Positions 285 through 52,679 of a stretch of DNA of 64,000 bases are shown here, in pieces. Within the stretch, counting starts at the first letter, position 1, and the number at the start of each line of letters is the position of its first letter. The position numbers and the translations under genes are program-made. Source of the DNA: a virus; IMG/VR virus record IMGVR_UViG_3300005527_000058, positions 1-64,000 of that record. The stretch is one strand, 5' to 3'. The notes below the pieces were generated by a model. It did not search any database, was not told the origin of the DNA, and saw nothing but the letters and a program-made list of their open reading frames with translations.

Positions 285-626
285 ATGATTATAAGTATAA
301 ACAAAAAGAAATTCAAAGTAAAAACTGTAGTTTCTAAAAAAGATACCATCAATGGTATGATGAACAAAAAGTTCAATACAGAATTCAACGGAATGTTATT
401 CATTATGGACGAAGGTGAACATTGTTTTTGGATGAAGAATTGTATAATCCCATTAGACATTATTTACATTGAAGATGGTAGGATTACCGAGATTCATCAT
501 GATTGTCCTCCGTGTAAGTCAGATGATTGTACTAACTACTGTGGTGAAGGAGATTTTATATTGGAAGTTAAAGGTGGTACTTGTAAAAAGAATGGAATTA
601 AAGTGGGTGATTTAGTCCACATCTAA
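285..626 (+). CDS. DUF192 family protein
   Basis: This 113-aa protein has the DUF192 (COG1430) signature: a GM(L/M)F strand followed by FWMKN and IPLDIIYIEDGRI, then a PC segment and a late ILEV..GT..KNGIKVGD strand. The family is small, beta-rich and of unknown biochemical role; cellular members are often exported but no signal peptide is seen here. Extra cysteines (PPCKSDDCTNYC, TCKK) could bind metal or form disulfides. The 3' end overlaps the stop of the convergent DHH gene by 15 bases. The start leaves almost no room for a leader, so a leaderless or very short transcript is likely. Confidence 0.8.
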   Translation: MIISINKKKFKVKTVVSKKDTINGMMNKKFNTEFNGMLFIMDEGEHCFWMKNCIIPLDIIYIEDGRITEIHHDCPPCKSDDCTNYCGEGDFILEVKGGTCKKNGIKVGDLVHI

Positions 627-2174
627 ACCACCCTCTTCGTCAATTTTTCTTTGTAATATCTCAATAAACTTATTTCTCATATCCATAATCAAATCTCTAG
701 TTGTTCTTTCCTTCACATCTTCAGAACCTTCATTTTCTTTATTAATTTGTCTCATGGCCGCTTCAACTTGTTTAGGTGACAATTTTCTATATTTTAGAAG
801 TTTACCTTTTATGTCTTTAACAAAATCATTATCACCTTTGTAATTAGCAATTGGTAATAATTCTTCAGGTAAATCTTTAGTATATGGTTTAGCATAATTA
901 CTATATATGAAATTAATACCCGAAATATTTGTTATACATTTATGACCACCTGAATTAGCATCTAAAAAATCATACCCATTAATTGAGTTTCCGTTATAAG
1001 ACGGCATTTCACCATATATTGCTTCCATATCTCTTTTAGTGAAACCAACAGAATCTTCAGTTGCACTTCTTTCAGATATCTTTTTAATAAGCGAATATGG
1101 TAATATTTGTTGTTCTAACTCAGGTTTAAAAAATTCTAATACTTCATCTTTGATTTTACCTAAATCAATCCCTTTAAGAGCTCGTTCTTTTTTAAATGGA
1201 TTACAAGATGCTTGGACCATACCGACTGATGCCATACCAGTAACTAAAAAGTCAGCATCAGGATATAATTCAAATGGGATATATCTATCATATGAACCTT
1301 TCTTCATATGACCTAAATCAAATTGTGTTAAAATATTACCGATAACCTGAACACCAGCATTAGTCGCAGTACCTTCTTTTCTATCTTTAATATATTTTTC
1401 TTGGTTTTTTATCATTGTATCAATATCTGCATAATTCCTTTCTATTGCAAATTGTTTAATAAGATTATAGATACCTTTAATAGATGGTTCAGAACGCATA
1501 ACCAAATCCTCCATAAATTTAGGATAATTCTTATAAGCCAATAATAGTTTGTTGGTAACAAGTCCCAACATAACCATATTCTCTCTACTAGTTTTATTTT
1601 CATCAAAACTAAATATGAAATTCATAACCATCTTGGGAGTAATATTATTCATAGCGTAATTAGCCGAGTCTACTGTTGAGATTATAAATAAATCAACATC
1701 TGAAAATAATTCTTTTGGAGAGACCGTTTGTGATATCGTCTCAACATTTGACCTTGAATGTTTGAAACTTGTTGATGTACCTTTTTCAACACCCGCTTGG
1801 CTATCGTGGTGGTCTGTATGTATTTTAAACATTGGTTTTCCGTGAGCAAAGTCCACTAACACAGGCATAACCTCACCTTTAGCGTCAGGTTTCTTTATCG
1901 CCCATTCTTTTTCACCATATTGTATAACTTCACAATCAACAACTTCAAAACCTTGATTCTCAAGATACTTTTTCATTGCAATTGCCGTTGTTACCCCATC
2001 CAAATCTTGATGAAAATAAATTTTTGCTTTCTTGTATCTTTCATGAATATTACCCATTTCATCATCACTGTCAGAACCTAAAAATTTAGTAATATCTCTA
2101 ATACCTGATTCAGTAATAATTTTTTTGATGACAGTTTTTAATTCTGATTCTGTTAATCTTACCTTTTTTTTCAT
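612..2174 (-). CDS. DHH-family phosphoesterase
   Basis: The 520-aa protein has the DHH superfamily core: FHQDLDGVTTA near residue 55 (motif I) and HTDHHDSQ near 120 (the DHH motif itself), with conserved aspartates between them (VLVDFAHG). DHH enzymes use two metal ions to cleave phosphodiesters and include RecJ exonuclease and NrnA-type nanoRNases. I choose the ATG at 2174 (MKKKVRLTES); the upstream extension in this frame would start with TTG inside the previous gene. The N-terminus carries an LTESELKTVIKKIITES helix that recurs in other proteins of the window and precedes the enzyme domain. The C-terminal third shows no DHHA1 motif I can identify. It could degrade host or phage nucleic acid, or be carried in the virion. 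Confidence 0.75.
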   Translation of the reverse strand: MKKKVRLTESELKTVIKKIITESGIRDITKFLGSDSDDEMGNIHERYKKAKIYFHQDLDGVTTAIAMKKYLENQGFEVVDCEVIQYGEKEWAIKKPDAKGEVMPVLVDFAHGKPMFKIHTDHHDSQAGVEKGTSTSFKHSRSNVETISQTVSPKELFSDVDLFIISTVDSANYAMNNITPKMVMNFIFSFDENKTSRENMVMLGLVTNKLLLAYKNYPKFMEDLVMRSEPSIKGIYNLIKQFAIERNYADIDTMIKNQEKYIKDRKEGTATNAGVQVIGNILTQFDLGHMKKGSYDRYIPFELYPDADFLVTGMASVGMVQASCNPFKKERALKGIDLGKIKDEVLEFFKPELEQQILPYSLIKKISERSATEDSVGFTKRDMEAIYGEMPSYNGNSINGYDFLDANSGGHKCITNISGINFIYSNYAKPYTKDLPEELLPIANYKGDNDFVKDIKGKLLKYRKLSPKQVEAAMRQINKENEGSEDVKERTTRDLIMDMRNKFIEILQRKIDEEGGLDVD

Positions 2175-2175
2175 A

Positions 2176-3291
2176 TTACTTAGCAAAAATTGATGACAAT
2201 AGACTACCTATTGGGTCTAATTTAAATTTATTATCTTTTAATGAATCGTCAGTTTTCATTGATGAGTCTTCAACTTCACTATCACCTCCAAAATCTTCAT
2301 TCCAGTATTTTTTAGCTTTAGCGGTTTTATTGTAATCCTCAATTTCATCATCAAGATTTGGTACTTGTTTTATTAATTCATTAGGTCCTACAAAGTTTCC
2401 AATACCCAAACTATCAAGTAAACCTAAATACCATTTAGTTCGTCTCATTAATGACCTTGTTGCAGCATTGCCAAACAATCTAGGGGCACCTGCCGTAAAT
2501 TTTTGCCATAAAGAGGCATCTGATGTAATATATTTTAAATAATTTTTTCCTTGACCGTAATCTCTAAAACCTCTGAACCCTGTTTGTTGTCCCATTAATT
2601 TGGCGAACTCTTCTTTCTCAGCAGCAGATAATGCTTTTTCACCTTTTAATCCTGACTTAAGTATTTCACCCTCAGCCTTCATATATCTACTACCTTTTGT
2701 GAATAATCTAATAAACTCCTCAATCAAATTAACTAATCTTGGACCTAAATAAGGAACTTTACCCACTGACGCTCTTAATATTTCAATTAACTTGGTTGCC
2801 CATTTTGGAGCTGTTTCTACTAACTTAGCAACAGGTCCACCAATTTTTTCAGCGGTAGACGCCATCTTAACCGCATCACCAGCAACAGTTGCCGCTTTAA
2901 ACGCTTTCATACTATCACCACCTATCTTAATCGCCCCTACAACAGGTTTGGCTAAAACATCACCTAAATAAGGTAAAACAGATATAAATGACAATAAAGC
3001 GAATAATTTATCACCTTGTCTCCAATAACTAATACCGTTAATTAAATCTACAACACCTGTTGGGTCAAATATACCAACAATATCCCCAATAGTATTATAC
3101 CATTTAGATTCATTAATTAATTTAGCTTTTTCAGGGTAAGTTGCTTTTAGGAATTCAACAACAAAAGTTTTATCATCAATACTAAGTTTTGACCACTTTT
3201 CTTCTAAGATGTTGAAAAACTCTTCCTTATATATTTGAGTCATCTTTGATTTAAGTTCTGACTCTGTTAATACTATACCATTCATTGACAT
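2176..3291 (-). CDS. hydrophobic protein with LTESEL leader; possible ejected or pretoxin-like protein
   Basis: The 371-aa product starts MSMNGIVLTESELKS, the same short helix seen at the front of the downstream DHH protein. After about 70 residues comes a hydrophobic stretch (FDPTGVVDLING then LFALLSFISVLPYLGD) rich in Gly, Pro and Ala. This resembles the pre-toxin segments that precede effector domains in polymorphic toxins; that resemblance is by eye only. The C-terminal 150 residues are unassigned. The upstream ORF extension lies in a terminator, which supports the ATG at 3291. It is separated from the methyltransferase by that terminator and ends one base before the DHH start. Confidence 0.6.
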   Translation of the reverse strand: MSMNGIVLTESELKSKMTQIYKEEFFNILEEKWSKLSIDDKTFVVEFLKATYPEKAKLINESKWYNTIGDIVGIFDPTGVVDLINGISYWRQGDKLFALLSFISVLPYLGDVLAKPVVGAIKIGGDSMKAFKAATVAGDAVKMASTAEKIGGPVAKLVETAPKWATKLIEILRASVGKVPYLGPRLVNLIEEFIRLFTKGSRYMKAEGEILKSGLKGEKALSAAEKEEFAKLMGQQTGFRGFRDYGQGKNYLKYITSDASLWQKFTAGAPRLFGNAATRSLMRRTKWYLGLLDSLGIGNFVGPNELIKQVPNLDDEIEDYNKTAKAKKYWNEDFGGDSEVEDSSMKTDDSLKDNKFKLDPIGSLLSSIFAK

Positions 3292-10412: not shown

Positions 10413-10509
10413 CTATAATTGAGATATTGTTTTATTTATCTTTAATCATAAATATAACGATTGATGTAATTTTCCATATCAGTTATATATATTATACATA
10501 TTTATCAAT

Positions 10510-20534: not shown

Positions 20535-21914
20535 CTATTGAACGTAGTAAAACCCTTGACCTTCTTCAACCATTTTTTCAGCCAATCTTGGTGGAATAAC
20601 TAAGTTAGGGACATTTCTAATTGTTACAAATGATAAGTTAGGTAAATCAGCCAATGTCTCAGGTAATTCTTTTAAATTTTCATTATCCGATAGTGTTAAG
20701 AACTGAAGATTCTTCATGTTACCGATAGAATCGGGTAGACTCTTAACAAGTTTTACTAACATCAACGCCTCAACATTTGTAAATTTACCAAGACTTTCAG
20801 GAATATCCCAAGCAACTTTCTCGTTAGAAGTATTATTAATCAATAAATATTTGATATTAGTCGGTAATGACTCAAACAATTCTTCAAATCCGTAAAGAAC
20901 AATGAATTTACCTGCCGAACTTTGAGGGTAGTTAATCTCAACCTTTTCACCGTTACCAGTAACCAATCCTTTTGCAAACTCAGGTTTGAAATACTCTTTT
21001 AATTCAACCATTGGTCCGTTTAACATTTCAACCAAGTTAACTGAACGGTCCATTCTATCCATAAACTGACTAGATGGGAAATGGAACTGATATCTTTCTT
21101 GAGGTAATCCTGTTCTAGCACCAACTAAACCTTTATCATCGTTTGCCATAATAACATACAAAGGACCTTGTTTAGCATAAGTCATAAAGTAGTTAGACCC
21201 TGGAGGTGATGTGCACCAATGTGATTCACCATTTTGATAATCATAGAATCCACCATACCATTGAGCGGCTTCTTGTTGTTGTGGTCCTGTACCTTCTATC
21301 TTAATTAAAGTATAGTTTTCACCTTCTTTCAGAATCTCACCACCTGGATGTGCAAATCTGTTTTCCTTCCTTTCTTGTCTAGCTTGAGACTTAACATCTT
21401 TTTTGTTGATTTTCTGTTTGACATCTTCAGGAAGATTCATGATAATATTCAACAATGAATTAGGAGTTAATTTATTAATGTCTCTTTGTTCTTGAGGGAT
21501 GTATTGTTTAATCTTTTCAAACTTACTCAACATATCAGTAAACTTGAATAAATCTTCAATGAATCGTCTTTTAAACTCTTTAATTGTGTTTTTGTATTCT
21601 GGTGAATTAACATCAGATGTTCCGATATCATCTAAATCTTGACTTGATGGTTTAACAAAGTTCTTTAACATCCACTGTGTGAACTTACCCACTTTAACTT
21701 TATCCATATCTTGGATTGATGCACCGTCAACATCAAAGTTCTGAGGTGCCTTAGTAGTGGGGTCCGCAAATATGATTTGTTTCAGACTATCAAAATCCAT
21801 TAAACCTCTTCCTTTAGGGTCTTTTTTATTAGGTACAACTAATTTGTCGTATAATACTTGGAATCTTGATTGTTCTTCTTTAATTAAGTGTCTAATGATT
21901 GAATTGAATCTCAT
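20535..21914 (-). CDS. leucine-rich-repeat protein, probably virion-associated
   Basis: The 459-aa protein begins MRFNSIIRHLIKEEQS, a short helix like the leader of other proteins in the window. A basic/Gln-rich middle (KKDVKSQARQERKENR) is followed by a Trp-rich part (AQWYGGFYDYQNGESHW). The last 100 residues are bona fide LRRs: IPESLGKFTNVEALML, LPDSIGNMKNLQFLTLS, LPETLADLPNLSFVTI. LRRs bind protein partners. Role unknown; the leader suggests packaging into the capsid, which is inference. Confidence 0.75.
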   Translation of the reverse strand: MRFNSIIRHLIKEEQSRFQVLYDKLVVPNKKDPKGRGLMDFDSLKQIIFADPTTKAPQNFDVDGASIQDMDKVKVGKFTQWMLKNFVKPSSQDLDDIGTSDVNSPEYKNTIKEFKRRFIEDLFKFTDMLSKFEKIKQYIPQEQRDINKLTPNSLLNIIMNLPEDVKQKINKKDVKSQARQERKENRFAHPGGEILKEGENYTLIKIEGTGPQQQEAAQWYGGFYDYQNGESHWCTSPPGSNYFMTYAKQGPLYVIMANDDKGLVGARTGLPQERYQFHFPSSQFMDRMDRSVNLVEMLNGPMVELKEYFKPEFAKGLVTGNGEKVEINYPQSSAGKFIVLYGFEELFESLPTNIKYLLINNTSNEKVAWDIPESLGKFTNVEALMLVKLVKSLPDSIGNMKNLQFLTLSDNENLKELPETLADLPNLSFVTIRNVPNLVIPPRLAEKMVEEGQGFYYVQ

Positions 21915-22841: not shown

Positions 22842-23453
22842 TTATTTAATTTGTTTAAATTTTAGTAATTTTCTTTCTAAGAACGTTATCGCCTTTGGGT
22901 AAATATAATCCCTAAAATTAGTAATATCCATTATTTTATTAATTTTAATAACCGAATAGTTTTCATATATGTATGGTTTTCCATAACCTAAGAATTTTAC
23001 AAGTTCATTGTTAAATTCTTTATTAGAACACAAACTTACAACAAAAGAATTTGGTCTATTTTTCACTTTTGAAATACTACCGTCACCATCAAAATAACCT
23101 CTTATAAAGTGAGGCATGAATACCTCATCTAACTTAGGTAAACGTATTTTTTGAGTTTTATTATTAACACACCCCAATTCAAATAATTGTTTAACCATTA
23201 TGTTTGAGTAAACTGTTACGGAACAAAATTTAGACTTCTTATCTACCCCACATTTTATAGGTTTATCACACCCTAAATCTTTAAGAAATAATTCAATATG
23301 GTTTCTATCAGTATCTTTTAATTTTAGTTTCACTTCACCACTTTTACCATTTTTCATTCTAGTATATCCATCGGCATATAAAAACCCTAACCAATAAGCG
23401 GATTTTTCATTCACCTCGTGAAAAAAATATTCATTAAAATTATATTTTTTCAT
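22842..23453 (-). CDS. LAGLIDADG homing endonuclease
   Basis: The 203-aa protein has two LAGLIDADG motifs, AYWLGFLYADG near residue 20 and FIRGYFDGDG near 117, so it is a single-chain double-motif enzyme. Such free-standing endonucleases cut long asymmetric DNA sites and spread by repair of the break. It overlaps the small upstream gene by 14 bases. No interrupted host gene is seen, so the neighbouring methyltransferase or the RNA locus could mark the insertion site. Confidence 0.9.
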   Translation of the reverse strand: MKKYNFNEYFFHEVNEKSAYWLGFLYADGYTRMKNGKSGEVKLKLKDTDRNHIELFLKDLGCDKPIKCGVDKKSKFCSVTVYSNIMVKQLFELGCVNNKTQKIRLPKLDEVFMPHFIRGYFDGDGSISKVKNRPNSFVVSLCSNKEFNNELVKFLGYGKPYIYENYSVIKINKIMDITNFRDYIYPKAITFLERKLLKFKQIK

Positions 23454-23607
23454 AATGTTCTTTAACTAAATTCTGGATAAATTTGGAGATACTTACCCCC
23501 TCGTTCTTCATTTTATCAAAAAGATATCGGTCAATACTAATTCCATACTTAACTTTTTTATCTTTATCTTCTTTTTTAGGTCTCCCCATTTTAGTTTCCA
23601 TACTCAT
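23440..23607 (-). CDS. small RHH-like protein paired with the homing endonuclease
   Basis: Starting at the ATG at 23607 the product is 55 aa. It has MGRPKKEDKDKKVKYGISIDRYLFDKM, an arrangement seen in small ribbon-helix-helix DNA-binding proteins, and overlaps the endonuclease start by 14 bases. The overlap implies coupled translation. It may tether or regulate the endonuclease. A longer start (to 23655) is possible but begins in the RNA-locus flank. Confidence 0.6.
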   Translation of the reverse strand: MSMETKMGRPKKEDKDKKVKYGISIDRYLFDKMKNEGVSISKFIQNLVKEHYEKI

Positions 23608-23685
23608 CTCTTTATTATAAATATAAGTAAAGTGCGTTAAAAAGTCAATAACCAAAAAAAACTTTTAAAAAAATCATTATACCTA

Positions 23686-23715
23686 TTGTATATATCAAAC
23701 AAAGGCTTAAATTTG
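23686..23715 (+). promoter_or_regulatory. consensus Bacteroidota promoter for an untranslated RNA locus
   Basis: TTG at 23686, exactly 19 bases, then TAAATTTG at 23708 is an ideal match to the phylum's -33/-7 consensus. It is the cleaner of only two such exact pairs I found in the gene-start regions of the window. Confidence 0.8.
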
Positions 23716-23720
23716 TATTG

Positions 23721-23870
23721 TTGATGTGATTGAGGACACACAACAGGATGTCAGAACTCCTAACTTACAATCTGACCATCAAGTATCGGGTGAGGTGATA
23801 CGGGTTGATTACCCCAACTTAATAAGTGAAACAATTAGTTAAACCCCATTGGTTCAGTGGGGTTAATTTA
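23721..23870 (+). ncRNA. structured untranslated RNA (regulatory leader or stand-alone small RNA)
   Basis: About 150 bases between the promoter at 23686 and a terminator near 23842-23864 contain no sustained frame. Three hairpins can be drawn by eye: GATG/TCAGA with TCTGA/C/CATC (23747-23780, nine pairs, one bulge, 15-base loop), GTATC/GATAC (23783-23801) and GGGT/ACCC (23802-23814) placed directly after it. The terminator pairs AACCCCA with TGGGGTT. The locus lies upstream of a 51-aa membrane protein gene and opposite the RHH/endonuclease pair. It may be a small RNA or an attenuating leader for that gene. Confidence 0.6.
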
Positions 23871-23923: not shown

Positions 23924-24079
23924 ATGAACACATCAAGTAAAGAATGTAAAGAATGTCAGAAAGGACCTCTTAACGTTAATTCAAACTATAAAATAATTAT
24001 ATTTTCATCTTTTATTTCAATAATGGCGATTTACGGTATTGTTAGGATTATCTCAGATATTATCGGGTATTTAAAATAA
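23924..24079 (+). CDS. small membrane protein with a CxxC motif
   Basis: An intact 51-aa frame starts MNTSSKECKECQKG with a CKEC pair and continues into one transmembrane helix (IIIFSSFISIMAIYGIVRIIS). Its stop is directly adjacent to the stop of dnaJ on the other strand. The position behind the structured RNA makes it a candidate for control by that element. Function unknown. Confidence 0.6.
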   Translation: MNTSSKECKECQKGPLNVNSNYKIIIFSSFISIMAIYGIVRIISDIIGYLK

Positions 24080-24988
24080 CTAATTCTTAACAAACTTAAC
24101 GTGTTGTTTTATAAACAAATCTCCACCGTGAAATCCTTTACCTTTAACTCTCAACGGTATTGATGTATTAAACTCATTAGGTAAATTTAATGATATAGGA
24201 CCGCTAGGATGTGGTATCTCAATTGAATCGGAGTTTAATTCATCGTAATTATAAAATTTATTATATATAAGGTCATTACCTAATTTTTCCCAATTATCTT
24301 CAGGGATAATATTAATTTTCATAACTAAATTACCGTAACTACCATTACTGTAATCCCCGTTACCTTGCATTTTTAAAAACTGTGACTCATCAATTCCGTG
24401 TGGCAATTTAATTTTAATATTTTCCATTTTAGTTTTTGTTGTCTTACCATTACAACCGTGACAAACACTGGTATAAACTTGACCAGACCCTTTACAATTA
24501 TTACAAGTTTGTCTAACAACCTGACTAAACATACTACCACCAACTTTAACATCAAAAAAACCTTGCCCTTGACAAGATGGACAATTTGTTTTTTCACCTC
24601 CACGCCCTTCACAAGTATTACACATTACTTCTCTTGAATATGTAATTTCTTTATCCTTCCCAAGGAACGATTCAATTACTCCAACATTAACATGTAATAT
24701 TTTATCGGGAGCCCCTCTTCTAAATCCTTGATTAAACATATTAAACATATCTGAGAATGGGTTAAATCCTCCACCCATATCCCCAAATGGATTGTTTTTT
24801 TGATTATCGTATTGTTTTCTTTTATTCTCATCACCCAATGTGTCATAAGCTTCAGATATTTTCTTAAAGGTATCTTCAGACCCACCTTTATCAGGATGAT
24901 GTTTAACGGCCAATTTTCTATAAGCTTTTTTAATTTCATCTTGAGTTGCACTTTCTTTAACTCCTAATGTCTCGTAAAAATTCTCCAT
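24080..24988 (-). CDS. dnaJ: DnaJ (Hsp40) co-chaperone
   Basis: The 302-aa protein has a J domain with HPD at residues 31-33, a Gly/Phe-rich linker ([15 protein letters not shown]), and a four-repeat zinc-finger domain with CxxC pairs at about 123, 136, 162 and 176 ([32 protein letters not shown]). The client-binding C-terminal part is shorter than in E. coli DnaJ (376 aa). It stimulates Hsp70 (DnaK), probably the host's, since none is seen here. Phage-borne DnaJ may help fold the large virion proteins. Confidence 0.95.
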
Positions 24989-27364: not shown

Positions 27365-29131
27365 TTATTGAGTCTTTCTGTCGTAATTCATCAGGTGTTG
27401 AATCTTGTTGAACTCTTCGTTTAATACTTTACTTTCTTTAGTATCAGATTCTTTAATATGAATTCCTGAACCTGAATTCTCACCAGTACCGTCAGTAACA
27501 GGGACTCTAGATTTTCTATATGCCGTTTCTTTCGCCTTGTGAAATTTCTTAGCCTTTCTTTTCTTATTAACATTTTTATTCACCTCGGTTTGTTCAGCAT
27601 TAGCATATTCATCCGAATTACCTGTTCTTGAGGACCCTTCAATTGTATCGGACACCCAATCTTCATCATATTCAATTTCTTCAGGTACTAAATCTTCCAT
27701 CCCTGGTTTCATATAATTATTTAAAAAATCTTTACCGTCATCTGACATTGTATATTTCTTTGCGGCCATTTTGGCTAACTGTCCATTACCTTTTGGGAAA
27801 TGTTTTGGACTTTCAGTATACTCACCTTTTGAACCGTCTTTCAAATATTCTTTCATTTTAGCAGCAACCGATTTTAAATATTCATCATTTTCCTTACCGT
27901 CTTTTCTATGAACTTCTTCATACTTAGTAAGACCTTTAGGTTTTCCACCAATAACTTTTAACTTCTCTTCTTCTTTGATAATATTCTCAATTAACTCAAT
28001 CATTTCATCTTCAGTAAGTTTTACAGATTCTTTAATCTTACTTTTCTTACCATTCTTACCTAGTTTAACTCCACGACCTAAAAGAATATCTTTACGAGTT
28101 ACTTTACCGTCACCACTTAAATCAGGAAACTTTTTACCTTCTTTAGTTTCAGATTTTTTACCTTGTAACATTTTAAAGTCCTCATCATCAATTTTATTAT
28201 TTTTGTTTTTGTCCAAAACTCTTTGTCTACCATGAAGTCTCTCGGTCATTTCTGACTTACAATCATATCTTTTCATAAGTTCCTTATCTAAATCAGTGAC
28301 TTTACCTCCTTGATTACGAATTACATCGTTAACTGCTTTACATCCACCAACATTTGGCTCATCACTAGTGTAATCAAATTCTTCATCACCTTCTTCATCA
28401 AATACACCTTCTTCTACGTAGTCAAATTCATTAGAATCGTCTAAATCATCAACATCATAAATGTCTTCATCCATCATACCATATGATTTACCGCATTCCA
28501 TACATTCACCTTCATACATATTTCCACCACATTCACAAAGTGATTTTTCCATTTCTGACACTAAATCACCACCATCTTCATCGTCAAAATTGTAATCATA
28601 GTCATCATCGTCATCATCACGGAAATTTCTTTTAAATAAGTCAGAAATATCATCCATTTTATTACCCAAATATTTACTAGGTGTTATTGAGTCGTCTCTT
28701 AAATTTCTCATATCAATATCTCTACCTTTAGGTATTTTTTTAAACTCTCTTGAAGAATAATCTTTACCACCTCTTGCTTTTTGAATATACGGGTCATCAA
28801 ATCCCTCATCCAACTCTGTATCGGAATCAATATCAAGTTCAGTCCATTCGTTGTCACCCGAATCTTCATCATCAAAGAAACGACCTCTCATTGTTCCATC
28901 TTCTTCTTCATCAGAGTCAACATAATCATTCATTAATGCGTCAATTTCTTCTCGTGACATTTTTGAAAAATTTAATTTACCAAACTTTGGATGGTCGTCT
29001 TCCATACCTCCAAGTTCGTTAACATTAGTCTTTATTTTTGACATAAGTTCGTCAGCCCTTTCTTCTAAATTCTCATTTAAAAATTTACTAACGATAGAAT
29101 TAATATAACTTTCATTTAGTCTTCTTTTCAT
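27365..29131 (-). CDS. acidic multi-motif protein, probably virion-internal
   Basis: The 588-aa protein opens MKRRLNESYINSIVSKFLNEN and is very acidic in its first 300 residues. It holds a four-Cys zinc-ribbon-like cluster near 195-210 (CECGG..CMECG), two EF-hand or dockerin-like calcium loops near 305 (DKNKNNKIDDEDF) and 335 (DLSGDGKVTRKDI), and an internal LTEDEMIELIENIIKEE near 370, a copy of the leader helix seen elsewhere. The C-terminal 100 residues are basic (KNVNKKRKAKKFHK) and it ends EEFNKIQHLMNYD. A scaffold or ejected internal protein is plausible. Confidence 0.7.
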   Translation of the reverse strand: MKRRLNESYINSIVSKFLNENLEERADELMSKIKTNVNELGGMEDDHPKFGKLNFSKMSREEIDALMNDYVDSDEEEDGTMRGRFFDDEDSGDNEWTELDIDSDTELDEGFDDPYIQKARGGKDYSSREFKKIPKGRDIDMRNLRDDSITPSKYLGNKMDDISDLFKRNFRDDDDDDYDYNFDDEDGGDLVSEMEKSLCECGGNMYEGECMECGKSYGMMDEDIYDVDDLDDSNEFDYVEEGVFDEEGDEEFDYTSDEPNVGGCKAVNDVIRNQGGKVTDLDKELMKRYDCKSEMTERLHGRQRVLDKNKNNKIDDEDFKMLQGKKSETKEGKKFPDLSGDGKVTRKDILLGRGVKLGKNGKKSKIKESVKLTEDEMIELIENIIKEEEKLKVIGGKPKGLTKYEEVHRKDGKENDEYLKSVAAKMKEYLKDGSKGEYTESPKHFPKGNGQLAKMAAKKYTMSDDGKDFLNNYMKPGMEDLVPEEIEYDEDWVSDTIEGSSRTGNSDEYANAEQTEVNKNVNKKRKAKKFHKAKETAYRKSRVPVTDGTGENSGSGIHIKESDTKESKVLNEEFNKIQHLMNYDRKTQ

Positions 29132-33064: not shown

Positions 33065-33865
33065 TTATAGGTAGTCAAACAAAACCGAACTTTCATTCCT
33101 TAATTTTCTAAGAGCCTTTTCTTTAATCTGTCTAACTCTTTCTTTAGTCAAATCAAAATCAGACCCAATGTCTTCTAACGTTCTTGGAGTACCAGTTAAC
33201 CCGAAATAATCACCAATGATAACTTTCTCACGTTCATCAAGAATGTTTAAAATTTCAAACATTTTTTGTTTCAACATGTCCTTACTATTGAATACCTCAT
33301 CAGGCATTTCAGCATCATCGTTTTTTATAATATCAACCAATGTATCACCATCTTCATTGATATTCATATCTAAATCAATCATGCTTGGTAAGTTTTGAAA
33401 TTTATCATCTAATTTACCCCCATTGGATTCAATCTCTTTTTTTGCCTTATGTAAATCTTGTACAACGTTAACTGGGAGTCTTATTGTTCTCGCATTATCA
33501 TTTAAAGATTGTAAAATTGATTGTTTAACCCACCAAACCGCATAAGAAATAAATCTAAGGTCTTTACCCCAATCAAAATTTTTAATCGCTTTCATTAAAC
33601 CTAAATTACCTTCAGCAACTAAGTCAGGAAAATCTAAACCTTGATTTTGATATTGTTTAGCAACCGTGATAACAAAACGTAAATTACCCTCTAATAATTC
33701 TTTATACACCCTTTCTTTTTGAGTATCGGAAAGATTTCCTGTCTTCATTAGATTGGAAAGCTCTCTTTCTCTTTCAGGTGTCATAACTTTTATCTTACGA
33801 ATATCTTTAAGATAAAGTTGGATTTCTTCTTGATTAATCGGAATTGATAAGTTTTTCTCTTTCAT
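33065..33865 (-). CDS. sigma-70 family RNA polymerase sigma factor
   Basis: The 266-aa protein has sigma region 1.2 (IQLYLKDIRKIKVMTPERE), region 2 with GNLRFVITVAKQYQNQGL and DLVAEGNLGLMKAIKNF, RFISYAVWWVKQSI (2.4), region 3 (IRLPVNVVQDLHKA) and region 4 ending LTKERVRQIKEKALRKLR. It resembles the short RpoD of Bacteroidota in size and layout. It may redirect host RNA polymerase to late phage promoters. The two best promoter matches here are of the host-type consensus. Confidence 0.93.
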   Translation of the reverse strand: MKEKNLSIPINQEEIQLYLKDIRKIKVMTPERERELSNLMKTGNLSDTQKERVYKELLEGNLRFVITVAKQYQNQGLDFPDLVAEGNLGLMKAIKNFDWGKDLRFISYAVWWVKQSILQSLNDNARTIRLPVNVVQDLHKAKKEIESNGGKLDDKFQNLPSMIDLDMNINEDGDTLVDIIKNDDAEMPDEVFNSKDMLKQKMFEILNILDEREKVIIGDYFGLTGTPRTLEDIGSDFDLTKERVRQIKEKALRKLRNESSVLFDYL

Positions 33866-41757: not shown

Positions 41758-41973
41758 ATGCCGACGCAAATAACCATAAACACAATTTCGGGAGTTCAAC
41801 CATACGATATATACATATGTGATGACCCAATCACAACTTGCATATATATAAGTACAATTTCAACTGTTCCTTATGTATTTAACGTACCTACATTATTGGA
41901 TGGTCAATCATCATATAATTTAAAAATTGTGGATAATAACGGTTGCTCGGTTGAAGAAAATTTAATACCATAA
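41758..41973 (+). CDS. stand-alone N-terminal domain of the giant repeat protein
   Basis: The 71-aa product (MPTQITINTISGVQPYDIYIC) aligns with the N-terminus of the 1750-aa protein at 44112 ([15 protein letters not shown] then CVLI). Both continue with a hydrophobic VPYVFNVPTLLD-type strand and a KI.DNNGC ending. It overlaps the following gene by one base. It may be an attachment module that mounts the surface proteins on the virion. Confidence 0.7.
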   Translation: MPTQITINTISGVQPYDIYICDDPITTCIYISTISTVPYVFNVPTLLDGQSSYNLKIVDNNGCSVEENLIP

Positions 41974-44060
41974 TGAGTTGTAATTGTTTATTAGTCAGAA
42001 TTGACCCTAATGATATTAGTTCATCAACAGGTAATACCCTATACACCGATAATACCGTCTTTATTGATGGTTTTTTAGATTGTGAGTCAACCCCTGTTGT
42101 AAATGAATTTACAGATAGAGGGTATTACTGTTATTGTATGACAACTTCCGCAGATTGTAGTATTTGTGCGGGTGACGGATGGGTCGTTTATGACGAAACA
42201 TCTTGCTACAGAGAAATTACAACAGCCGCAACACCTCCTGTATCACCATTATCGGCGGTTGCCACATCATTTTTTGTGTATTCACAATTTGGTAGTTATT
42301 TTTACCAACCAGGATTTTGTCAATGTGGTTCAGGTGCAACATATACTATAGTTACAGGTGTTGATTCGTGGGAAAATGTTGGTGACACTATTTCTGAAGG
42401 CCCTTTAAATAGATGTGCCATTTGGCCAACAACAGGTGGAAGTGCACCACCATTCAACAAATGGTTAGGATTTTCATCTTGTTTATCAGGGATTACTGAA
42501 ACAAAAACATACTGGGTTGGAATTGGGGCTGATGATGATTTTAGACTTGTCTTAGATGGTAATCTTATTGTAGATACTTCTTTACCTCCTAATCCTTTCA
42601 CAACGAGTAACGGTCAATCCTTTAAAAGATGGAACGTATACCCCGTTGAGATTGGTGCAGGTGACCATACTTTGGAGGTTTACGGATTAAATGCTGGTAG
42701 TCAAGGTGGTTTTGGATGTGAGATTTATGATGGTGATTTAGCAACATTAACTGGTTTAACGACTTATGCGGCATTAGAACCTTATATAATATTCACAACA
42801 TCAGGCCAAACAGAATTTACTATAGTTCAAGACACATTAGGTAATTACGATTCATCAGGTTATACTTGTCCTTCAGGATATGTTTATTCTGAATGTAGTG
42901 GAACTTGTGTTTCATATGAATTCTGCGAAACACCAATGTCACCAACACTTTATTATTATCAAGATGATATAATAGTTTCAGGTGAAAGTGTTTTAAGTGA
43001 ATTTGTTTTACAAGAAGAAAATTGTTCTGAAGAAAGTGATTGTTGTGGTGATATATGTAACACATCAGGTTATTGTGTTTCAAATACGGAAAATATATCA
43101 TATGATGATAACTACATTGAGAGTGGTTTACATAACGGTAAACCTTATTGGGTTGGGGAATCTAATGGTTTATTTATTTATTATTCAACAGGTAACACTC
43201 AATGGTGTTTAGCGATGTCTTTAGACGGTCCTTGCTTTCTTTCAGGTAAATCACCTTGTGTTAGTGTTTGTCCTGATTTACTTTCAGAATATTTTTCTGA
43301 AGGAACTTGTTCAACCACAACTACAACAACGTCACCTTGTGATACTTTTGATTTTGAATCGTTATTTAATTGCGAGTTTGAGCCAACCCCTACCCCCACC
43401 CCAACTCAAACAACAACACCCACACCTACCCCAACACCAAGTCCAACAAATGTTTGTGGAGGTGTAAATGTTGGTGCAACTATTTTATCGTTTACGCCAA
43501 CACCAAGCCCGACTCCTACAATAACACCAACACCTTCGGGTATTGTTGAAAGGCCGTGTCAATACTCTGGTGATGTAACATTTAATACGGTTAATGAAAT
43601 GATTAATTGTCCTGTGAGTAAACAATTTCAAGATTGTTACAATGGAACAATGTATTATACCACTAATAACGTAACTATCCCATCAGGAGGGACTTTAGAA
43701 CAATATCAAGTATTCTATTCAACTGTTGACGGATTAACTAAATGTATTTCATATGTTGGGATTACAACTCAAGTAATCGGGGTTAATAATATAATTTTAA
43801 ATGTTGGTCCTTTAGGATTATCTAATTTAGGTGGTTGTGCTGTTTGTACAACTTTTTCTGAGTGTTATACTTATACTGTTAATACAACAAAAGGCAATTC
43901 TATCACATTTGAATATACTCCATGTTGTGGTGAATCATTACCGTCACCATATACTTTTGATGAAGGTTCAATTAGTTTTTGTTCAATTACATACCCTAAC
44001 ATAATTTTAGGTTCACCGATTATATCCGTTACAGCATCCTGTGAAAAGTGTCTCGCATAA
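41973..44060 (+). CDS. Cys-rich surface protein with PA14-like domain and Thr/Pro linkers
   Basis: The 695-aa product starts MSCNCLLVRIDPNDISSS. A region near residues 120-270 has WVGIGADDDFRLVLDG and a DHTLEVYGLNAG turn, as in PA14/lectin-like sugar-binding domains. Several Cys-rich parts follow, then Thr/Pro linkers ([13 protein letters not shown]) near 470 and 510, and a final Cys-rich module (FEYTPCCGESLPS..). There is no signal peptide, so it is probably a virion protein. Likely host surface-binding. Confidence 0.7.
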   Translation: MSCNCLLVRIDPNDISSSTGNTLYTDNTVFIDGFLDCESTPVVNEFTDRGYYCYCMTTSADCSICAGDGWVVYDETSCYREITTAATPPVSPLSAVATSFFVYSQFGSYFYQPGFCQCGSGATYTIVTGVDSWENVGDTISEGPLNRCAIWPTTGGSAPPFNKWLGFSSCLSGITETKTYWVGIGADDDFRLVLDGNLIVDTSLPPNPFTTSNGQSFKRWNVYPVEIGAGDHTLEVYGLNAGSQGGFGCEIYDGDLATLTGLTTYAALEPYIIFTTSGQTEFTIVQDTLGNYDSSGYTCPSGYVYSECSGTCVSYEFCETPMSPTLYYYQDDIIVSGESVLSEFVLQEENCSEESDCCGDICNTSGYCVSNTENISYDDNYIESGLHNGKPYWVGESNGLFIYYSTGNTQWCLAMSLDGPCFLSGKSPCVSVCPDLLSEYFSEGTCSTTTTTTSPCDTFDFESLFNCEFEPTPTPTPTQTTTPTPTPTPSPTNVCGGVNVGATILSFTPTPSPTPTITPTPSGIVERPCQYSGDVTFNTVNEMINCPVSKQFQDCYNGTMYYTTNNVTIPSGGTLEQYQVFYSTVDGLTKCISYVGITTQVIGVNNIILNVGPLGLSNLGGCAVCTTFSECYTYTVNTTKGNSITFEYTPCCGESLPSPYTFDEGSISFCSITYPNIILGSPIISVTASCEKCLA

Positions 44061-44111
44061 ACTTAGTTTTATTCAGATATAAAAAAGTGAATTAAATATT
44101 TATGTAATATA

Positions 44112-47100
44112 ATGACTTCAATTGAAATAAGTAACATATCAGGTTTACCAAACCCATATCAGATTTACGTTTGTGACGTATTTGGTAATCAATGTGTTCT
44201 AATTGCAACAATTAATACTTTAGTACCTCCAAGTACAACATTTTTATTACCCAGTCAATTTGATAGCGCACCTGCAGTTGGTATTAAAATTATAACAAAT
44301 GATGGTTGTGAACGATTTGAAATTGTTTATTGTATATCACTAATTACGACCCCAACCCCAACCCCAACTCCAACACCGACTCCAACACCGACTCCAACTT
44401 CAACTCCAACACCAACTAACACCCCAACTGAAACTCCAACTAACACCCCAACTGAAACTCCAACTAACACCCCAACTGAAACACCTACTAACACCCCAAC
44501 TGAAACACCTACTAACACCCCAACTGAAACACCTACTAACACCCCAACTGAAACACCTACTAACACCCCAACAAAAACTGCAACAAATACACCAACTGAG
44601 ACCCCTACTAACACTCCAACTGAGACGCCAACTAACACTCCAACTGAAACACCAACTAACACACCAACTGAAACTCCGACGAACACACCAACAAAAACTG
44701 CAACAAATACACCTACTGAAACACCAACGAACACACCTACTGAAACTCCGACGAATACACCTACTGAAACTCCTACTCAAACACCGACTAACACAATAAC
44801 ACCAACCAATACTGAGACCCCTACGAACACACCTACGAATACATTAACACCTACTAATACTGAGACTCCTACTCAAACACCGACTAACACAATTACACCA
44901 ACTAATACAATAACTCCAACTAATACTGAAACACCTACTCAAACGCCAACTAATACCATTACCCCAACTCCGACTGAAACACCTACTAATACCCCAACTA
45001 ATACCATTACCCCAACTAATACTGAAACTCCAACGAACACTCCAACGAACACATTAACACCAACCAATACTGAGACCCCTACGAACACCCCAACAAATAC
45101 AATAACACCAACTAACACTGAAACTCCTACACCTACCCCAACTAACACGATAACCCCAACCAATACTGAGACCCCTACTCAAACGCCGACTAACACAATA
45201 ACACCAACCAATACTGAGACCCCTACGAACACCCCTACGAACACAATAACACCAACCAATACTGAGACCCCTACGAACACCCCTACGAACACAATAACAC
45301 CAACTAACACTGAAACTCCCACGAACACCCCTACGAACACAATAACACCAACTAACACTATTACCCCAACTAACACTATTACTCCAACTAACACTGAAAC
45401 ACCTACTCAAACACCAACTAACACAGTCACACCGACAAACACAATCACACCAACAAACACAGAGACACCTACTCAAACGCCAACTAATACCATAACCCCA
45501 ACTAATACTGAAACACCTACTCAAACGCCAACTAACACGATAACCCCAACTAATACTGAGACCCCCACTCAAACACCAACTAATACACCTACGAATACTG
45601 TCACACCAACTAATACTTCAACTCAAACTCCAACAAATACACCTACAAATACTGTTACACCGACAATAACTTCAACACAAACTCCGACTAATACGTCCAC
45701 TAACACAGGTACTCCAACAAATACACCTACAAACACATCAACAAATACACCAACTAATACGCCGACAAATACTATTACCCCAACAAACACATCAACTCAA
45801 ACACCTACGAACACATCAACAAATACTCCAACGAATACCGTTACACCAACAAGAACTGCAACTAACACACCAACGAATACTCCAACTAATACTGTAACCC
45901 CAACAAACACTTCAACCCAAACTCCGACCAACACACCTACAAATACTCCAACGAATACTGTAACGCCAACTAATACTTCCACTCAAACTCCGACTAACAC
46001 ACCTACTAATACTCCAACAAGAACTGTTACACCTACTAACACTATAACACCTACTAATACATCAACTCAAACACCAACCAATACACCTACAAATACTGTA
46101 ACATCTACTATCACCCCTACAAATACACCTACAAATACTTTAACACCAACCAACACTATTACTCAAACCCCTACGAACACACCTACAAACACAATTACAC
46201 CTACAGGTACAATAACACAAACTCCAACCAATACACCGACTAATACTTTAACACCAACGAACACATTAACTCAGACACCAACAAACACTCCTACAAATAC
46301 CGTAACTCCAACTATTACTTCAACTCAAACTCCGACTAACACACCAACAAGAACTGTTACACCTACTAATACTCCAACGAATACCTCAACTAATACTCCT
46401 ACTAACACTATAACACCGACAAATACACCAACTAATACGCCAACAAACACGATAACAAATACTGTTACACCTACTAACACCTCAACAAATACACCAACAA
46501 ATACCGCAACGAATACACCAACAAATACCGTTACTCCTACTAACACTCCTACTAACACTCCTACTAACACTCCTACGAATACCTCAACGAATACCCCTAC
46601 AAGAACATCCACACCAACTAATACCCCTACAAGAACCGCAACGAATACACCAACTAATACCCCTACAAATACTGTAACACCAACTCAAACAAGTACTCAG
46701 ACACCAACTCAAACAAATACTCAGACACCAACTAACACTTCAACTAATACTGTAACACCAACACCAACTCAATACCCATGTAATTGTATTGACTTTTTAG
46801 ATACAACAATAGAGGGTTTTATCACATATAGTTATGTTGATTGTTCAAATGTTACCGTTACAGGTGTTACAAATCCAGGTAATGATTCATTTAGAGTTTG
46901 TGGTAGTAATCCTATTGTTAGTAGTCCTAAATTAGAATTCACTATAGGTGGATTTTGTTCTGGAGGTATATGTCCAACACCAACTCCAACACCAACACCA
47001 ACTAATACTCCGACTAATACTCCGACTAATACAAATACTCCGACTAATACACCTACAAGAACATCTACACCAACTAACACTCCGACAAGAACCTCAACTA

Positions 47101-49364
47101 ACACCCCGACCAATACGGTGACGCCAACAAGAACACCAACTAATACACCAACTCCTACCCAAACACCTACCCAAACACCTACTAACACTATAACAAACAC
47201 ACCTACAAGGACATCAACACCTACAAGGACATCAACAAACACACCTACAAGGACATCAACACCTACAAATACACCTACAAGAACATCAACACCTACAAAC
47301 ACACCTACATTAACTGAAACCCCTTCACAATTCTGTTTTTCATTCCCTTCAAATCAGACAAATATTATAATTAACGATAATACAACCGCATCAGTATACC
47401 CTATAACTTTTACAGTATCAGGTTTAGTTACACCAATTACAGATGTTAAATTTGTACTTAGTGGTTATTCTCACAATGCGGTTGGGGACGTTGGGATGGT
47501 TTTAGTTGCACCTGATAATTCAACTTATTCATTAATTGCGGGTAGAATAGGTGGTGTTACAACCGCAACTAATGTAACAGTTACATTAACGTCTTTCTCA
47601 ACGCCTGATTGGAATGGATTTAGTTCAGGTACATTTGGTAATAACTCTACAATACAAAACTCAATGACGTTTAGTGCCCCTTGTCCAGTACCTCCTTTGG
47701 TGGCTCCTGGTAACTCACCTGAGTTTACTGTATTTGACGGAATACAACCACCAAATTCAAATGGTACTTGGTCATTATATATCCAAGATTTTGCGGTAGT
47801 AGATGCTGGTACGTTATCAAGCGCAACTTTAATAATCTGTACTGATGATGTAACTCCTACACCAACACCAAGTAACACTCAAACACCTACTAATACTGCA
47901 ACACCTACAAGGACACCTACTAATACTGTAACACCTACAAGGACACCTACTAACACACCAACCAATACCTCAACAAATACACCTACAAGAACCGTTACAC
48001 CAACCAATACCTCAACAAATACACCTACAAGAACCGTTACTCCAACAAATACTCCAACCAACACACCTACAAGAACTTCAACTAATACCCCAACTAATAC
48101 TGTAACACCTACAAGGACACCTACTAACACACCAACCAATACCTCAACAAATACACCAACAAATACACCTACAAGAACCGTTACACCAACCAATACCTCA
48201 ACAAATACACCTACAAGAACCGTTACTCCAACAAGAACACCAACAAATACACCTACAAGAACTTCAACTAATACCCCAACTAATACTGTAACACCAACAA
48301 ATACACCTACCAACACACCTACCAACACACCTACAAGAACCGTTACTCCAACAAGAACACCATCCAATACACCTACAAGAACCGTTACTCCAACAAGAAC
48401 ACCTACTAATACACCAACAAGAACTCTTACTCCAACAAGAACACCAACAAATACACCTACAAGAACCGTTACTCCAACAAGAACACCAACACCAACACCA
48501 ACTTGTAGTTGTCTTCAGTATGAATTGGTGTCAAACTCATTTCCTGCGAATACAACATTTACATTTACCCCTTGTTGTGATGAGGCCGCAACATCACCAA
48601 TTATTATAAATAATTTTCAGAGTCCTGTATATGTATGTTCCAGTACTACCCCATCCCGTTCAGGTGCTGGGTCTGTAACAGCCGTGGGGTGTTGTCCAAG
48701 TTGTAATCTAACTCAGTCAGGATTAGTTTTATGGTATGATGCGGGTAATGAAAATTCTTATTCAGGGAGTACCAATTTACTTGATTTAACAACAAATAAT
48801 AACGATACCGTCTTAAGTTCGGGTGTTACGTATTTTCCAAATATACCTCAAGTTTATGGTAGTTTACTTTTTGATGGTGCTGGTGATGATGGGTTAGATG
48901 GTAATAACGCATCAATACAATTATCAACGGGTTGTACTGTTGAGGCGTTTATTAGACCAACAGGGTTTACTAATAGCCCTAATATAATTTCAAAAGATAG
49001 TAATAACGGTTATAGATTGAGAATTAATACATCGGGAAATATTAATTTTATTGCTGATGGTTCGGCAATTAATTATACATCATCACCAACAGTATTAACC
49101 GCAAATACATGGGCTCACGTTGTTGCAACACACGGCCCAAGTGGTGGTAATTTATATCTTAACGGTACTTCAGTTGGTAGTAATGGGGACCCTTTTGGGA
49201 CAGTTACAAACGTTTCTAGTTTACGGGTTGGTAGGTTCCAAGCAGGTTCGCCTCAAGAATATTTCCAAGGTTATATCGCTATTATTAGAATATATAACAG
49301 AGAATTAAGCTCTACTGAGGTCACCAATAATTTTAATTCAGAAAAAGATAGATTTGGTTTATGA
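44112..49364 (+). CDS. giant Thr/Pro-repeat virion adhesin with P-domain and LamG-like domain
   Basis: The 1750-aa protein has: an attachment-like N-terminus (1-75), a roughly 800-residue Thr/Pro/Asn linker of TNTPT-type units, a Cys-rich module (~888-955), a second linker, a P-domain (proprotein-convertase type, ~1074-1246, with [19 protein letters not shown] and [10 protein letters not shown]), a third linker, another Cys-rich module (~1465-1535) and a C-terminal LamG/concanavalin-like domain (~1535-1750, [10 protein letters not shown] and [13 protein letters not shown]). It lacks a signal peptide. A long flexible stalk carrying host-binding heads is the natural reading. Minus-strand frames across the repeats are artefacts. 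Confidence 0.8.
44343..46765 (+). repeat. Thr/Pro/Asn repeat block 1
   Basis: Bases encode degenerate four-residue units (mainly Thr-Asn-Thr-Pro and Thr-Glu-Thr-Pro), with a 12-base period and higher-order 24- and 48-base arrangements. Codons vary synonymously within the block, so the DNA copies are not identical. Confidence 0.9.
46975..47325 (+). repeat. Thr/Pro repeat block 2
   Basis: A shorter block of the same TNTPT-type units between a Cys-rich module and the P-domain, with more Thr-Arg-Thr units than block 1. Confidence 0.85.
47854..48500 (+). repeat. Thr/Pro repeat block 3
   Basis: The third linker, rich in Thr-Arg-Thr-Pro units, with several near-identical 60-base stretches. It leads into the last Cys-rich module. 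Confidence 0.85.
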
Positions 49365-52649: not shown

Positions 52650-52679
52650 ATTTTATTTATAAATATCTTATTTTAAAAA

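Follow-up and report, generated by a model that had tools for sequence, protein, structure and literature searches.

A conserved structured RNA gene without a known family in related uncultured bacterial viruses

Comparative sequence analysis indicates that a real and strongly conserved structured RNA gene is carried by a group of uncultured bacterial viruses. It was characterized in the first 64,000 nucleotides (hereafter the window) of a 73.8-kb IMG/VR virus record, where an RNA unit of four helices, P2 to P5, lies between a promoter-like and a terminator-like element (Table 1), and it is comparison between relatives that establishes the existence, the strand and the fold of this RNA. Across the group the RNA is built from an optional 5' hairpin, P1, one or two P2-P3 modules, then P4, P5 with its GAAA and a terminator-like hairpin, and its apical loops are near-invariant (..ACUCCUA..A.AAU in P2 and GGUGWRN in P3). 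The reading that we favour, and hold to be probable though with considerable reservation, is a phage-encoded noncoding RNA that acts in trans and that measures about 150 nt, tandem forms reaching about 230 nt. The ends of its transcript and its early expression are inferences, and its partner and a sponge-like action are hypotheses.

Table 1. Features of the RNA locus and of neighbouring genes, in window coordinates.
Feature	Position	Strand	Basis or detail
Bacteroidota-type promoter: TTG (23686-23688), 19-nt spacer, TAAATTTG (23708-23715)	23686-23715	+	sequence
P1, 5' hairpin (UUGUUG.UGUG / CACACAACAG), directly 3' of expected transcription start	23718-23746	+	fold
Conserved RNA unit P2-P3-P4-P5 (covariance model R1)	23745-23833	+	106.9 bits, E 5e-25
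P2, GG[A]UGUCAG / CUGA[C]CAUC	23746-23780	+	
P2 loop, 17 nt, UCCUA near-invariant	23755-23771	+	
P3, 6-bp stem, 7-nt loop GGUGAGG (consensus GGUGWRN)	23783-23801	+	
P4, short 3-bp GGG/CCC hairpin (GGGUU...ACCCC)	23802-23814	+	
P5, ACUU/AAGU mini-hairpin, 3-4 bp	23817-23827	+	
GAAA directly after P5	23828-23831	+	
Intrinsic-terminator-like hairpin AACCCCATTGGTTCAGTGGGGTT and T-rich tail	23842-23870	+	10-bp stem at 23842-23864
51-aa CxxC membrane protein gene, neighbour outside the RNA	23924-24079	+	
DnaJ gene (J domain, CxxCxGxG zinc domain, C-terminal domain)	24080-24988	-	
LAGLIDADG homing endonuclease gene (203 aa) and 71-aa partner (MGRPKKEDKDKKVKYGISIDRYLFDKM...)	22842-23655	-	
Phage sigma factor gene	33065-33865	-	

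The evidence for a structured RNA comes from this comparison, that is, from the fixed place of the promoter and from compensatory changes, and not from the lone sequence. Considered by itself, the RNA fold of the window is unremarkable (MFE z = -1.5; 17 of 200 shuffles fold equally well or better), and TTG-N18-20-TAnnTTTG is only mildly over-represented in the AT-rich window, with 13 occurrences versus 7 in shuffles. Homologues were sought by DNA pattern scans of IMG/VR, in which matches without the remaining motif were discarded as chance. The same element was found in 18 contigs, corresponding to about 13 distinguishable loci: the window, L003, L011, L012/L021 (one contig read as two pieces), L015, L018, L019, L027 (identical to L031, L062 and L065), L032, L041, L046, L063, L064 (the same as L071) and L076. 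One of the 18 contigs, L004, is identical to the window across the RNA stretch. The covariance model R1, in which the window sequence itself is included, recovers every copy with up to 109 bits and finds a single locus per carrier contig. Two tandem units are present in six loci and in L012/L021, either as a P2-P3 module 57 nt upstream of a full unit (L019, L032, L063 and L076) or as two full units spaced 92 nt (L018, L015 and L012/L021).

The fold was assessed in a nearly gap-free alignment (A2) of 15 full units of 89-91 nt, in which the consensus helices are P2 (GG[A]UGUCAG / CUGA[N]CRYY), P3 (six pairs closing the GGUGWRN loop), P4 (GGG/CCY) and P5 (three to four pairs and then GAAA). Standard pairs make up 96.5% of cells in the 15 units, compared with 88.4 +/- 0.9% in column shuffles and 29-49% with slid partners, and P3 and P5 together contain 34 two-sided compensatory cells, compared with 11.9 +/- 2.6 in column shuffles and 2-6 in slid controls. 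The support is strongest in P3, where all six pairs show compensatory two-sided changes and 99% of cells are paired, while in P5 two-sided changes (UA/CG swaps) occur in three of the four pairs. In P2 all cells are paired, with five pairs invariant and three varying one-sidedly (G-C/G-U, U-A/U-G), and its pairing is supported by one-sided changes only because its 5' strand never varies; similarly, P4 is weakly tested because it is nearly invariant. When the extra P2-P3 modules are added to the alignment, 99.6% of cells pair. As read on the + strand there are 36 G-U wobble pairs and no A-C, and hence the functional molecule is inferred to be a + strand RNA rather than a DNA element or an antisense RNA. 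An earlier note on the window had drawn three hairpins, which correspond to P1, P2 and P3 and are all present, and had proposed a search for covariation, which is now found in P3 and P5; P4 and the covarying P5 are two further helices that it did not mention. P1 is absent in L011, L041, L064 and L071, the 5' stems of other members differ (for example GUGUG/CACAC in L018), and P1 is less certain than P2 and P3 because the lowest-energy folds of L046 and L027 pair the 5' end elsewhere. Further tertiary pairs were sought by mutual information and rejected, as the high scores outside the known helices look like noise from relatedness.

An exact TTG-N19-TAnnTTTG, which we take to be the promoter recognized by the primary sigma factor of Bacteroidota, lies at the matching place in 10 of the 15 loci, where it ends about 20-33 nt upstream of the unit; in 80 nt of like composition an exact match would arise by chance with a probability of about 0.0005. 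Only the TAnnTTTG box is retained in L003. No promoter match is found in L011/L041 and L064/L071, in which the unit begins 2-3 nt past the upstream stop codon, and there the RNA would therefore be part of an mRNA 3' end. In those members for which the 3' flank was read, the last unit is followed by a terminator-like hairpin. Having a promoter and a terminator of its own, the RNA has the makings of an independent small RNA gene, although this applies at the level of sequence only and the transcript and its ends are inferred. Between the terminator and the next start codon, a TATTTAT motif is present in 10 of 12 loci (the window, L003 and the truncated L012 excluded). In the window and related loci, WTATTTAT occurs within 35 nt upstream of start codons in 30 of 197 regions versus about 5 expected, in many cases at a distance of about 12 nt from the ATG (examples in the window are at 52666 and 21939 on the - strand and at 10498 and 44096 on the + strand). 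This motif is plausibly a late promoter, because it is enriched upstream of genes and the phages encode their own sigma factor. Since the window and L003 lack TATTTAT before the 51-aa gene, some read-through into that gene cannot be excluded.

No match to the RNA was found in INPHARED or PLSDB, and the window DNA gave only chance-level matches to INPHARED. A pattern scan of 84,980 bacterial and archaeal species genomes returned no true match, the only hit (L092) being unrelated and due to chance. In Rfam 15, no family reached its curated threshold when the whole window was searched, and a permissive search with four members gave a best E of 0.13, far under the gathering scores. No description of the RNA was found in the papers searched, and an earlier report that never entered Rfam cannot be excluded. 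The absence of matches in all of these sources leads us to regard it as a new family within the broad class of phage-encoded structured RNAs. The promoter-like and terminator-like elements that the earlier note had placed around a functional RNA are indeed present, and its surmise that such an RNA has no known family agrees with the outcome of the Rfam search, the functional RNA itself being supported by the homologues, the two-sided covariation and the strand-specific wobble pairs.

Where marker genes were found, the carriers form one broad phage group (71-94% identity in the sigma factor and 54-76% in the primase) that keeps DnaJ at 44-77% identity and whose gene content includes SbcCD, primase and sigma factor; no tRNA was found in the window. 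The RNA is situated between a D12 adenine methylase gene and the DnaJ gene in the window and in seven other loci, and the gene directly downstream differs among them: in the window and L003 it encodes a CxxC membrane protein (51 or 54 aa), and in the six other methylase-DnaJ loci a protein of 160-172 aa. In loci of the L018/L015/L012, L011/L041 and L064/L071 types the RNA adjoins other genes, giving at least four gene contexts overall, and tens of kilobases separate it from DnaJ on any such record in which both were found. The small CxxC membrane protein (51-56 aa, with the CxxC N-terminal; also at 2459-2623 in L003 and 6897-7067 in L007) has no Pfam match and adjoins DnaJ in nearly all relatives, including L007, where the RNA is absent. 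The window unit and the first unit of L018 are 97% identical in the RNA, compared with 56% in DnaJ and 80% in the sigma factor. The RNA is thus conserved independently of its neighbours, which favours a trans-acting RNA, as a cis leader should track its own gene. Because it is more conserved than the compared protein genes, changes genome position and is duplicated, a selected molecular function is inferred.

Several other features of these genomes were observed. In the window the LAGLIDADG gene and its 71-aa partner lie between the methylase gene and the RNA promoter, and at the position of the LAGLIDADG gene L019 has instead a 266-aa endonuclease-like ORF with HNH-like cysteine motifs (near 2100-3050, - strand), accompanied by a clear relative of the 71-aa protein, so that one small protein accompanies two endonuclease types. 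Short helix-like N-terminal tags (MKKLIRKILKEE, MNLKESIKRILKEE, MKLLNVLKKLITES), which resemble the sequences that target internal proteins of T4 to the capsid, are found on many proteins (window 612-3291, 20535-21914 and 27365-29131, all on the - strand; also in L011 and L064), and several such genes adjoin the RNA. Finally, two long + strand genes (window 41973-49364) stand within a mostly - strand region and have ACTCCTA repeats and a strong GC-skew excursion, of -0.65 at 44-46 kb, as for repetitive fibre-like proteins.

The stretch had been described as having no sustained frame, and this description has to be corrected for the window, where a 38-codon frame is open from GTG 23726 to TAA 23842 and a second frame of 16 codons opens at ATG 23748; the 38-codon frame is not conserved. 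A small protein encoded in either frame could be argued from an AGGATG that resembles a start site and from similar peptides in many members, the ATG frame beginning MS[EV]LL in most, but it is largely refuted and retains next to no credibility. Diversity in the ATG frame is 0.17 at third positions versus 0.20-0.23 at the others, so that wobble sites are not more variable, the synonymous fractions in the two open frames (0.23 versus 0.24 expected and 0.25 versus 0.23 expected) show no excess, and both frames are broken by stops or frameshifts in relatives, with indels in L019u2 and L076u2. A tblastn search of the 38-aa frame against phages gave only matches with E of 3 or more, and the protein reading was rejected for both frames. 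One locus per genome, extreme sequence conservation and a promoter of its own would also be expected of a structural or replication RNA, such as a packaging RNA, an origin transcript or a primer. We regard this as very improbable, since there is no match in Rfam, which includes known phage RNAs, and the genome location is variable; no turn in GC skew was found at the RNA locus, and an origin of replication there was rejected on that ground.

The choice that was left undecided in the earlier note is that between a small RNA and a leader of the 51-aa gene. As a cis-acting leader of the riboswitch or attenuator type, the aptamer-like unit or units and the terminator would control read-through into the adjacent downstream gene, and in a variant of this an AGGA(U)GU/ACUCCU hairpin, formed by the 5' strand and loop of P2, could act as a switch against P2. 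The order of promoter, units, terminator and ORF within 20-60 nt on one strand in most loci is that of a leader, and arrays of two units look like tandem aptamers. In addition, the 5' strand of P2 and its loop are both near-invariant and AGGA:UCCU could pair in 98% of cells, but because nothing varies there covariation cannot test this alternative; a pseudoknot between the P2 loop and GGGUU is likewise possible but shows no covariation. A leader should, however, have a consistent downstream gene or function, which the at least four contexts do not show, as the downstream genes differ between them and are lost or gained without the RNA. Moreover, a late-type TATTTAT motif usually follows the terminator before the next gene, and the units of L011/L041 and L064/L071 directly follow a stop codon without a promoter match. 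The evidence speaks more for a free small RNA than for a leader because relatives of the 51-aa gene occur without the RNA (L007), because the RNA occurs without an adjoining 51-aa gene (L011, L018 and L064) and because a terminator-like hairpin stands between the two, and we consider a leader unlikely. The position of the unit after a stop codon in L011, L041, L064 and L071, with a terminator-like hairpin at the end, would suit a 3'-end element, either a compact fold with a role in protecting or processing the 3' ends of mRNAs or a small RNA derived from a 3' UTR. For a pure 3'-end element, however, the promoter directly upstream in 10 of 15 loci would be superfluous, and the loops are more conserved than a stability hairpin requires, which makes this reading more doubtful still than that of a leader.

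If the RNA does act in trans, as we favour, it would in most carriers be transcribed alone, by the RNA polymerase of the host together with the primary sigma factor of Bacteroidota, with a stop at the terminator, the next gene usually having its own late-type WTATTTAT motif, while in the L011/L041 and L064/L071 phages the RNA would be made as the 3' end of the mRNA of the upstream gene. The stems may serve as a scaffold on which the invariant loops are displayed to a single partner, be it an RNA or an RNA-binding protein of the host or the phage. Duplication of modules may multiply the binding sites in the manner of sponge-type small RNAs; both the binding and the sponge-like step are unproven and rest on analogy only. 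The DnaJ mRNA, the only strong candidate, was considered as a target of the P2 loop (9-bp match, DnaJ codons 8-10) and rejected, as the wobble bases that create this match are not retained in the other DnaJ starts that were read. A more far-reaching proposal, which can be only tentative and may well prove wrong, is that this is a new phage-specific class of trans-acting noncoding RNA, transcribed early by the host polymerase in Bacteroidota and using its tandem P2-P3 modules to sequester a host factor or to reprogram it. If true, phages would have here their own equivalent of sponge RNAs. To our knowledge, phage RNA regulation in Bacteroidota is almost unexplored. Few structured RNAs of virulent phages are well supported, and the present one is outside all Rfam 15 families; the covariance model, the defined modules and the near-invariant loops now allow a direct search for its partner.

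Each of four known systems resembles this RNA in part. Tandem riboswitches of the glycine-type architecture have transcription terminators, and in the present RNA, too, a terminator and an ORF come after folded units in tandem, but it has no conserved downstream gene, shared metabolic function or Rfam match. The phi29 prohead (packaging) RNA likewise comes from a phage, is of comparable size and has its own promoter, and its family is contained in Rfam; the present RNA does not match the model of a phi29-type packaging RNA, as it has no Rfam hit, and its carriers are phages of another kind, with SbcCD, primase and sigma factor. The CsrB/RsmZ-type RNAs are titrating small RNAs with repeated hairpins, and the likeness is that of a stand-alone structured RNA with repeated hairpin modules, a conserved loop sequence and a terminator, although the present RNA is phage-borne, has only one or two modules, and neither a GGA-in-loop pattern nor a CsrA partner is established for it. 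RNAs C and D, the stable small RNAs of T4-like phages, are similar in being small structured RNAs of large virulent phages whose function is unknown, whereas the present RNA lies outside a tRNA cluster and has a promoter and a terminator of its own.
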